Source: Saccharibacillus kuerlensis DSM 22868
Lineage (GTDB): Bacteria; Bacillota; Bacilli; Paenibacillales; Paenibacillaceae
DNA: 64,000 nt
Assembly (NCBI RefSeq): GCF_000378145.1
Contig: NZ_KB899281.1
Coordinates: 1-64,000, forward strand
Reading direction: 5' to 3'
In this document: positions 56,668 through 58,455 of the stretch, piece after piece
Numbering within the stretch: the stretch's first letter is position 1
Layout: every line of letters begins with the position of its first letter
Made by a program: the position numbers and the translations under genes
The notes under the pieces: model-generated
What the model saw: only the letters and a program-made list of their open reading frames with translations
Databases searched by the model: none
What the model was told of the DNA's origin: nothing

Positions 56668-56724
56668 GGCGCTTTACGCATGCTGCGCAGAGCCGATTAT
56701 GCAGGCGGAAGGAGGAACAAACGG

Positions 56725-57408
56725 GTGAATGACGAAGCCTGGAAGACTTGGTCCATGGGAGTCTCCTATGCGATGGAATCGCCTCAGGTTCATATTCCTC
56801 ACGCCCTGCTGCGTTTTTACCGCAAGATGGATCTCAGTTTGGAGGAAGCGATGCTGCTTATTCAGCTCATCGCCTTCCGCCAAGCGGAGTTGAACGACTT
56901 CCCGACCCTTGAAGAACTGCAGGAGCGAACCGGGATGGAGCCGAGCGAACTCGCCGCTAGGCTTCAGCGTTTGATCAAAGACGGGTTTCTGGCTATCCAT
57001 GAGGACGAGGACACGCCATCCGGTATCCGCTTTGAACGCTACAACCTGGCCGGGCTGTATGAGCGCTTGGCAGGCTGCTTGGCCGAAGAGCGCCGCAGCC
57101 AGCGCCGGATGGAACGTCCGGCAGCAGTTCCTGAAGACGACACAGAAACAGCTGATAACCTGTTCGGAGTGTTCGAACAAGAATTTGCCCGCCCTTTGTC
57201 GCCGATGGAGTGCGAGACGATCTCCGTTTGGATTGATCAGGACCGGTATCCGGAAGAGCTGATTTTGTTGGCACTGAAAGAAGCGGTATTTGCAGGTAAA
57301 CTGCATTTCCGCTATATCGACCGGATCCTTCTTGAATGGAGCCGCAACCGGGTACGTACCCCGGAAGACGTCCGTGCCTATTCTCAGAAATTTAGAGGGC
57401 AAAGGTGA
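56725..57408 (+). CDS. dnaD: DNA replication initiation protein DnaD
   Basis: DnaD helps load the replicative helicase in low-G+C Gram-positives. The 227-residue protein has an N-terminal winged-helix DDBH1 domain (ALLRFYRKMDLSLEEAMLLIQL) and a C-terminal DDBH2 domain (FEQEFARPLSPMECETISVWI, ending in YIDRILLEWSRNRVRTPEDV). GTG 56725 follows AGGAGG at good spacing; the ATG at 56680 is upstream of that site. The usual next gene nth (endonuclease III) is absent, and tandem hairpins begin at its stop codon. Confidence 0.93.
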   Translation: MNDEAWKTWSMGVSYAMESPQVHIPHALLRFYRKMDLSLEEAMLLIQLIAFRQAELNDFPTLEELQERTGMEPSELAARLQRLIKDGFLAIHEDEDTPSGIRFERYNLAGLYERLAGCLAEERRSQRRMERPAAVPEDDTETADNLFGVFEQEFARPLSPMECETISVWIDQDRYPEELILLALKEAVFAGKLHFRYIDRILLEWSRNRVRTPEDVRAYSQKFRGQR

Positions 57409-57449
57409 TTTTTTGTATTCGAGCCAACAGCGAGAATAAAAAAATCACC
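57404..57449 (+). repeat. Tandem hairpin repeat, copy 1
   Basis: Outer stem GGTGATTTTTT with AAAAAATCACC (one spare A), then an inner TATTC/GAATA stem, around the conserved loop GAGCCAACAGCGA. It overlaps the dnaD stop codon. Its stem bases differ from copies 2-4 in a compensatory way. Confidence 0.85.
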
Positions 57450-57457
57450 GATTAAAA

Positions 57458-57504
57458 GGTGAATTTCCGCACTCGAGCTAACAGCGAGAGAGAGGAAACT
57501 CACC
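57458..57504 (+). repeat. Tandem hairpin repeat, copy 2
   Basis: Outer stem GGTGAATTTCC with GGAAACTCACC (one mismatch), inner CTCG/CGAG, loop AGCTAACAG. Copy 3 is the same across all 47 nt. Confidence 0.85.
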
Positions 57505-57513
57505 GATAAAAAA

Positions 57514-57560
57514 GGTGAATTTCCGCACTCGAGCTAACAGCGAGAGAGAGGAAACTCACC
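57514..57560 (+). repeat. Tandem hairpin repeat, copy 3
   Basis: Identical to copy 2 over the hairpin; separated from it by a short A-rich linker (GATAAAAAA). Confidence 0.85.
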
Positions 57561-57570
57561 GACAGAAAAA

Positions 57571-57616
57571 GGTGAATTTCCACATTTGAGCTAACAGCGA
57601 CAATGAGGAAACTCAC
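57571..57616 (+). repeat. Tandem hairpin repeat, copy 4
   Basis: Outer stem GGTGAATTTCC with GGAAACTCACT; the inner stem is CATT/AATG in place of CTCG/CGAG, again compensatory. The loop GAGCTAACAGCGA is conserved. Confidence 0.82.
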
Positions 57617-57619
57617 TCT

Positions 57620-57641
57620 ACAAACGTCAAAATACGTTTGT
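57620..57641. other. Perfect hairpin after the tandem repeats
   Basis: ACAAACGT, loop CAAAAT, ACGTTTGT. It has no T-run and differs in sequence from the tandem units. Confidence 0.5.
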
Positions 57642-57690
57642 CCAAGCTTTTTCGTCGATACAGACAATCGTGCGTCCCGACGTTTATCGC

Positions 57691-57725
57691 AAAGCCTTGC
57701 GGCCTTCTGCCGCAAGGCTTTTTTG
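57691..57725 (+). terminator. Intrinsic terminator downstream of dnaD and repeats
   Basis: AAAGCCTTGCGGC, loop CTTCT, GCCGCAAGGCTTT then TTT: a perfect 13-bp stem. The following 57726-57906 holds no clear gene or promoter. Confidence 0.92.
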
Positions 57726-57906
57726 TCTGTAACCCATCGCTGTACATCATCATTTGCGCTGCTGTATTTTATTCGAAGACGCAGTATGATTAGAGATGAC
57801 AGCTTGACTTCAGACCCGGATGGAAAAATCGCAAACTATTTTGTAAAAACATGCAGGGTTGTTCCCGATAGGTGCGTCTATATAAGCGGGAAAGGGGGGG
57901 AGCAAG

Positions 57907-58455
57907 ATTGATGAACAGGAATTGATTCGACGTATTCTGCGCGGAGAGGACGACGCGTTTCGCGAGCTCGTTGACACATACAGGCAGCACGTATTTCGTA
58001 TAGCCTTCTCGGTACTGCGCAGCGAGAAGGATGCCGAAGATGCCGCGCAGGAAGTGTTTGTCCAAATTCATAAATCGCTCCCTGATTACCGTTCCCAAGG
58101 TTTCAAGACGTGGATCTCGCGGATTGCCATGAACAAAGCGATCGACTTCAAGCGCAAGCAGAATCGAAGACACGAAGATCTGTATGATTCGGAACCGGCT
58201 CTTCTGCAGATTGCGTCAGGAGACGAAGCACCACTGACCCGTATTCTGCGCGAAGAACGGTCGGATGAGATTAGGCAGCGTTTAGCGGATATGCCGCAGG
58301 GACATCGAGATGTAATTGAGGCATTTTATTTTCAGGGCAAAAATTATGAAGAAATATCGGCGGAAATGCATGTAACGGTCAAAACCGTCGAGTCAAAATT
58401 GTACCGGGCGCGAATGTGGATTCGGCAGCACTGGCGGGAGGAGGAATTGCGATGA
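57907..58455 (+). CDS. ECF-type sigma factor, probable ATT start
   Basis: Region 2 (ELVDTYRQHVFRIAFSVLR, DAEDAAQEVFVQIHKSL) and region 4 (RLADMPQGHRDVIEAFYFQ, NYEEISAEMHVTVKTVESKL) define a SigW/SigV-like ECF factor of about 182 residues. The frame is open from 57886, but no ATG, GTG or TTG precedes TTG 57922. That TTG is 20 nt from the strong AAGGGGGGG site and would cut off ELIRRI-type N-terminal residues. ATT 57907 lies 6-7 nt after the site and gives a normal N-terminus (IDEQELIRRILRGEDD). A base error in the G-run is an alternative. The anti-sigma gene overlaps its end. Confidence 0.85.
   Translation: MDEQELIRRILRGEDDAFRELVDTYRQHVFRIAFSVLRSEKDAEDAAQEVFVQIHKSLPDYRSQGFKTWISRIAMNKAIDFKRKQNRRHEDLYDSEPALLQIASGDEAPLTRILREERSDEIRQRLADMPQGHRDVIEAFYFQGKNYEEISAEMHVTVKTVESKLYRARMWIRQHWREEELR

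Follow-up and report, generated by a model that had tools for sequence, protein, structure and literature searches.

The window analysed here, a stretch of 64,000 nucleotides from Saccharibacillus kuerlensis DSM 22868 (contig NZ_KB899281.1, positions 1 to 64,000), carries at the dnaD stop codon a tandem array of four hairpins that is best explained as a lineage-specific extragenic tandem hairpin repeat, inherited at two sites of the genus, whose fold is probably selected and which may have a 3′-end role at the level of mRNA or DNA structure. Taken whole, this account falls a little short of an even chance; its descriptive part is secure at a high level of confidence, and its functional part is tentative.

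A preliminary description of this DNA had reported four tandem hairpins, and the repeat is plainly there: TRF, run on the window, returns 57401-57616 with a period of 56, 3.9 copies, and a score of 283, the unit-to-unit spacings are 54, 56, and 57, and each unit folds (Table 1), with MFE values of -15.7 to -21.0 kcal/mol and z-scores of -4.3 to -6.9 relative to dinucleotide shuffles (unit 1, -19.2 kcal/mol and -6.9; unit 2, -21.0 and -4.9; unit 4, -15.7 and -4.3). As few as 0, 0, 0, and 1 of 200 shuffles fold as well as units 1 to 4, respectively. Each unit is an imperfect hairpin of approximately 46 nt. Read 5′ to 3′ in the window, AAA precedes a five-pair outer stem (GGTGA/TCACC here), which a single mismatch separates from a middle stem of roughly five pairs; a small asymmetric interruption then leads to an inner stem, again of roughly five pairs, and to a tip in which a GA/GA internal loop is followed by a short GC helix with a small loop. 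The sequence GAGC(C/T)AACAGCGA, previously read as a conserved loop, is indeed exact in all four window units (with no further exact match genome-wide), although it is mainly a 2x2 GA/GA internal loop plus the short GC helix; similarly, the paired outer stem ascribed to copies 2 to 4 is present, although it contains an A.C mismatch. C-GA-G tandem mismatches form stable sheared pairs. A coding repeat is ruled out by the spacings of 54, 56, and 57, and a CRISPR-like array by the 8-11 nt that separate the units checked by eye.

Table 1. Coordinates of the dnaD-site features in the window.
Feature	Position	Strand	Details
dnaD	56680..57408	+	ORF with a provisional start codon; Pfam DnaD_N and DnaB_2
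Entire tandem array	57401..57616	+	period of ~56 nt; matched by the R1 and R2 covariance models
Hairpin unit 1	57404..57449	+	outer stem GGTGATTTTTT / AAAAAATCACC; 5′ arm GGTGA (57404-57408)
Hairpin unit 2	57458..57504	+	stem GGTGA(A)TTTCC / GGAAA(C)TCACC
Hairpin unit 3	57514..57560	+	hairpin identical to that of unit 2
Hairpin unit 4	57571..57617	+	inner stem CATT/AATG
Intrinsic terminator-like hairpin	57691..57721	+	downstream of the array; 13-bp perfect stem; d-score +44

The 16 genus genomes comprise ten of the Saccharibacillus clade, which is the array-bearing clade, and six of a distant clade whose DnaD is 59-61% identical and whose named members match Paenibacillus dauci, wulumuqiensis, and nuruki. 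Within the former, G000 is the window's own genome, and G008 matches S. alkalitolerans, G003 S. qingshengii, G013 Saccharibacillus sp. O23, G009 S. deserti, G015 S. endophyticus, and G006 S. sacchari. The search of this genome and its relatives that had been proposed earlier was carried out with two covariance models and recovered copies both elsewhere in the genome, on contig C12, and in relatives. With the first model (R1, built from 16 units), exactly six units are found in the window's genome (4 + 2), even at E ≤1 (150 of 1915 candidates scored), and units occur in seven of the 16 genus genomes (150 candidates scored in each). The second model (R2, built from 34 units) finds them in eight of the 16 and in at least eight of 295 family genomes, every carrier belonging to this genus; its filters were stricter and it scored 19 candidates in each genome, a depth at which weak relatives may escape detection. 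Neither model finds units in any of the six distant-clade genomes. All units found in the 16 genomes occupy two orthologous sites, the dnaD 3′ end (six of 16: G000, G008, G002, G003, G009, and G013) and the fur-xerD gap (five of 16: G000, G003, G009, G006, and G015), with one to eight units per array across species, the exception being one weak solitary candidate. This candidate, L252 (G006, C1:4262972, ~358-407 on the minus strand; 28.1 bits, E 1.9e-5 in 31 kb), directly precedes a terminator-like hairpin (context by eye) and is possibly a solitary unit of the family at a third site.

The core pattern TTYGAGCN{2,8}GCGARAA yields 98 matches in the 16 genomes versus 22 in the reversed control, an excess for which the 10 array matches do not account and which may reflect codon use, or else further hidden hairpins. 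Folding of 69 distinct stretches from 70 loci (30 returned, 40 fetched), consisting of five array units and 64 others, with 29 hits (24 of them non-array) left out, uncovered no clear additional arrays apart from L252, the one short-frame case among the 64 that folds well around the core; L225, L221, and L242 pair well but sit in frames open across the whole fetched stretch, and L188, L193, and L234 show partial pairing that is weak or falls within longer frames. The shortened loop GAGCYAACAGCG gave 35 matches outside the window array in 39 genomes versus 63 in the reversed control (four versus none in G021 alone), and R2 detects no unit in the 29 such loci returned from outside the window. 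A species tree of dnaD plus xerD did not resolve, one of the six distant-clade genomes being usable; a 5.6-kb tree based on codon positions 1+2 groups the six dnaD-array genomes together, but the support values surrounding this clade are low (31, 41), and it is absent from the tree of all positions. Given this discordance and low support, no claim of gain or loss is made.

At the dnaD site, the array had been placed at the stop codon, and the TGA (57406-57408) does lie inside the first stem of unit 1, within its 5′ arm. The gene ends in AGA GGN CAA AGG TGA in all six array carriers, such that the first arm of the unit supplies the last codons; no other arm of the array overlaps dnaD codons. 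In the four non-carriers of the clade, dnaD ends in CGC GGN CAA CGN followed by TAA or TAG, with the same peptide end. Unit 1 is retained at the stop codon in six of six carriers despite strong sequence change, and the arrays consist of four units in G000, one plus a fragment (by eye) in G008, three in G013, five plus one of a second type in G002, and one plus one of the second type in each of G003 and G009; no units are found at the dnaD 3′ end of G006, G011, G014, and G015 (four of the ten Saccharibacillus-clade genomes). As the terminator-like hairpin lies beyond the array, the latter would fall in the 3′ UTR of the asnS-dnaD unit if the transcript reaches that hairpin. The gene after the array (57922-58452) encodes an ECF sigma factor, and in some relatives the DNA past dnaD resembles a gene running towards dnaD (by eye), so that the region between dnaD and nth is variable. 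The G006 assembly (L078 / L086) contains dnaD together with its 3′ region twice in tandem, the two copies being separated by a run of N; this may be an assembly artefact.

The preliminary description had also stated that nth, the usual next gene, is missing here and that the array may have filled its site; the gene is not missing from the genome, and the filling of its site is not supported. In all 16 genus genomes nth scores above the family cut-off, and in the window's genome it lies at C5:72144-72716, outside the window and 15 kb downstream of dnaD. Since the distance is 22 kb in array-less G011, the array did not fill an nth gap. The family cut-off search of the 16 genomes is the sound test in this respect; a motif search, which detected nth near dnaD in 0 of 80 loci, used a motif without a positive control and included a few loci that extend <4 kb on that side.

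A different palindromic element also occurs near dnaD. This 161-nt element (fold of -67 kcal/mol; L076 1340-1500, minus strand, in G015) directly follows dnaD in G006 (L078), G014 (L079), and G015, three of the four species of the Saccharibacillus clade that have no array there, and lies beyond the array in G013 (L075). It is dispersed, with matches in 10 of the 16 genus genomes, including at least 50 in G015 and at least 48 in G006 (40 of >330 candidates scored in each) and 16 in the window's genome, none of them in the window, and it looks like a true high-copy palindromic repeat.

The second site became apparent in the window's own genome, where BLASTN locates two diverged units on another contig (C12:116642-116751), between a FUR-family gene and a phage-integrase-family gene that, judging by position and domain, is xerD. 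Model matches in the fur-xerD gap number two in G000, eight in G003, and four in G009, with single decayed units in G006 and G015 and no units in G002, G008, G011, G013, and G014 (five of the ten Saccharibacillus-clade genomes). At dnaD the unit points the same way as the gene; in the fur-xerD gap, where the array comes after the fur terminator, it points the opposite way to the genes. By eye, the AAA end is the one turned towards the gene in both places (towards the end of dnaD or the sequence that precedes xerD), and the opposite end is variable. The ~130 nt before xerD (L087-L096), between the array and the gene, contain a conserved stretch, GTGGAATC...GATTCGG, with small hairpins and a ribosome site, which by eye looks like a structured xerD leader. 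Within the G009 array (L093 1256-1332), the hairpin tip of one unit is present twice owing to an internal duplication of 23 nt, a trace of slippage.

Comparison among species indicates that the fold of the unit is kept while its sequence drifts and that units within an array evolve together. In a plain MAFFT alignment of 16 distinct units, not fitted to structure, 92.1% of cells are paired; the shuffles give 84.0%, with 0 of 500 reaching the observed value, and the slid controls 57.2% or less. The covariation score is 0.405 and 28 cells are changed on both sides (0 of 500 shuffles as high in either case), and nine of 17 pairs have both sides changed (19 of 500 shuffles as high). An alignment of 31 distinct units to the model, which leans towards structure, gives 89.8% versus 79.1% (0 of 500), with slid controls at 58.8% or less; changes on both sides of a pair occur in 68 cells (0 of 500) and in 11 of 17 pairs (3 of 500). 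In the number of further pair types the units do not exceed shuffles (192 of 500 for 16 units and 123 of 500 for 31), and these shuffles ignore relatedness, the cells being non-independent events. The outer stem, for example, passes from GGTGA/TCACC through GGCAA/TTGCC to CGCCGA/TCGGCG, and the middle stem from TTTTT/AAAAA through TTTCC/GGAAA to TTCCC/GGGAA. Exceptions are two of the six G002 units, in which one-sided changes (GGGGT vs AATCACC) break outer pairs, and the decayed units of G006 and G015, which fold poorly. The earlier proposal that pairing is maintained during drift therefore holds between species too, and the covariation support in relatives that had been named beforehand as its test was found. 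Certain mismatches persist alongside the pairs: the outer-stem mismatch is A.C in 17 of the 31 distinct units, and GA lies opposite GA in 24 of the 31 (the rest being three GA/AA, two AA/GA, and two GC/GA), forming a plain 2x2 loop in 18 of those 24, with the core shifted or an extra base in the other six. The core is displaced by an additional base in the fur-xerD units of G003 and G009, and a decayed unit of G015 is truncated. The MFE is lower on the plus strand in 14 of 31 units (means of -19.8 and -18.9), so fold energy does not favour RNA on one strand over DNA.

The contrast in stems between copy 1 and copies 2-4 of the window, which had been taken as compensatory change, stands only in part: compensatory changes are real between lineages, while within this array the contrast probably derives in part from copying out of the fur-xerD array. 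Outside its own array, unit 1 is nearest to a dnaD-site unit of G013 (0.89 identity); its identity to the fur-xerD units of the window's genome is 0.80. Units 2, 3, and 4, by contrast, have their nearest relatives outside the array in those fur-xerD units (0.85, 0.87, and 0.83). In G003, fur-site units have a mean identity of 0.93 among themselves and 0.83 to G009, with 0.67 between the two G003 sites. From these identities we infer that arrays evolve in concert within a site and that, in the window's genome, copying of units between the two sites has probably taken place; such copying would explain the contrast, at least partly, better than stepwise compensation in place. With concerted evolution and exchange between sites, the window's compensatory changes do not amount to four independent observations.

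The strongest rival, a serious one even if doubtful on balance, is neutral: slippage would expand the arrays, polymerase template switching between palindrome arms would keep the arms matched, and pairing would be a by-product without function. Template switching that homogenises the arms of inverted repeats is described (PMC7202029; PMC8604942), and the variable copy number, the several species without arrays, the joint evolution of units within an array, and the lack of strand preference all suit it. The evidence against it is the persistence of the GA/GA loop and of the A.C mismatch, which arm correction should erase, and the retention of unit 1 at the stop codon in every dnaD-site carrier despite strong sequence change.

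In the preferred account of a selected hairpin repeat, the array would have been inherited in place at the dnaD 3′ end and in the fur-xerD gap, growing and shrinking by slippage or unequal exchange such that copies within an array evolve together, and units would occasionally have been copied between the two sites, as their similarity in the window's genome suggests. Selection on the folded strand, to which the covariation points, would keep the hairpin with its GA/GA internal loop. At dnaD, hairpins between the stop codon and the asnS-dnaD terminator could act as a 3′-end barrier against exonucleases; alternatively, they may serve as a supercoil- or gyrase-type DNA structure at the operon end, as proposed for REP/BIME arrays. 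Because the fur-xerD array lies past the fur terminator and is inverted relative to the genes, a role in the mRNA 3′ UTR cannot hold for both sites, whereas a DNA-level role would fit both, each being at the 3′ end of a gene or operon. Against this account stand the absence of arrays at dnaD in four and at fur-xerD in five of the ten clade genomes, the weaker covariation measures, the one-sided G002 changes, the internally duplicated G009 unit, the core-pattern excess that the array matches leave unexplained, and the lack of strand preference.

An unlikely alternative is that the units are tandem back-up intrinsic terminators on the minus strand (a hairpin with CTTTTT after it), which would shield xerD from transcripts reading through from fur and protect dnaD against antisense transcription. 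The minus-strand tails begin with at least three T in 28 of 33 units, the minus strand of the unit is the gene direction at fur-xerD, and a consensus scan of the window reports one terminator-like site on the minus strand (57462-57445), at the junction of units 1 and 2. The genes flanking the window array, on the other hand, are both on the plus strand, against the terminator-like direction, and the d-scores, calculated on unit hairpins rather than on hairpins formed between units, have a minus-strand median of -19 (one of 33 above 0) and a plus-strand median of -75 (none of 33 above 0), as opposed to +28, +32, +42, and +44 for four native terminators. By these scores the units do not belong among intrinsic terminators. 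The consensus scan found no terminator in the eight-unit G003 array, but it also missed the fur terminator there and thus says little.

It is distinctly improbable that the array is a tandem series of sites, in RNA (or single-stranded DNA), at which a specific protein or RNA binds by recognising the GAGC..GCGA core. The recurrence of GA opposite GA across species while stems vary would accord with it; conversely, the two sites have opposite orientations, the array is missing from some species, the core is changed or shifted in the fur-xerD units of G003 and G009, no linked candidate protein was seen, and no Rfam family matches at its gathering score (window 57200-57900 and a set of five loci). 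Rfam matches below the gathering score, including a eukaryotic element (E 1.5e-4) in L072, were treated as chance.

The earlier suggestion of a mobile palindromic element (REP, BIME, or MITE-like) inserted at dnaD is scarcely credible: the units are short, imperfect, tandem, and extragenic palindromes that were likely copied between two sites in the window's genome, yet across 16 genomes, with a capped number of candidates scored in each, they were found at two inherited sites, bar the weak solitary candidate, GTAG lies within 14 nt of the end in one of 34 units and CGTC in none, the nine neighbour proteins scanned include no transposase (and no RAYT, the Y1 transposase), XerD being a core-gene recombinase, and blastn (E 1e-5) finds no match to the unit in 72,556 plasmid or 50,697 phage records. 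Membership of the REPs was likewise rejected on the end tags and on copy number (six units at two sites in its own genome, rather than many dispersed copies), and that of the MITEs since no dispersal was found and no clean target-site duplication was seen by eye.

Among known systems, the array belongs with the intergenic tandem repeats (VNTR/STAR-like), its units being head-to-tail, extragenic, and one to eight per array. BOX elements of pneumococcus are structured intergenic repeats with a middle module in variable tandem number, from which the array differs in that no distinct flanking modules were noticed and two sites alone are occupied; REPs cluster into BIMEs, and some MIRUs overlap stop codons. 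The STAR elements of Staphylococcus are intergenic direct repeats whose loci expand and contract, each locus having a sequence of its own that stays stable in a lineage, much as here, but they are interspersed at different genomic loci in each species, in contrast to two orthologous sites and a covarying hairpin (PMC3532100). The MIRU/VNTR loci of mycobacteria are also short tandem repeats in intergenic gaps with copy numbers that vary between isolates, although MIRUs are described at 41 locations rather than two and the Saccharibacillus unit is a covarying hairpin (PMC2734929). REP/BIME sequences share short, imperfect, extragenic palindromes, some at ORF 3′ ends, and have been proposed to function in mRNA stability and as gyrase targets (PMC3733652); the Saccharibacillus unit differs from them in lacking the GTAG/CGTC tag, high copy number, and a RAYT among the neighbours scanned. 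Word searches of open-licence PubMed Central returned no description of a Saccharibacillus hairpin repeat among the matches listed.

The array is therefore a newly described lineage-specific repeat, probably a modest example of a familiar kind of intergenic repeat. It carries a caution for covariation analysis in repeats, namely that exchange between sites can be a source of compensatory differences among tandem copies. If the repeat is functional, hairpin copy number would be linked to dnaD or xerD expression; that the array is a genus-specific regulatory one, anchored at the dnaD stop codon and ahead of xerD, in which the copy number of a structured binding module with one shared ligand tunes the expression of both the replication-initiation gene and the chromosome-resolution recombinase, is a very doubtful extension. 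Finally, the same module at two orthologous sites, in one to eight copies of very different sequence and a single fold, constitutes a small natural experiment, in which the question of whether selection or palindrome-correcting mutation keeps repeats folded is testable within one genus.
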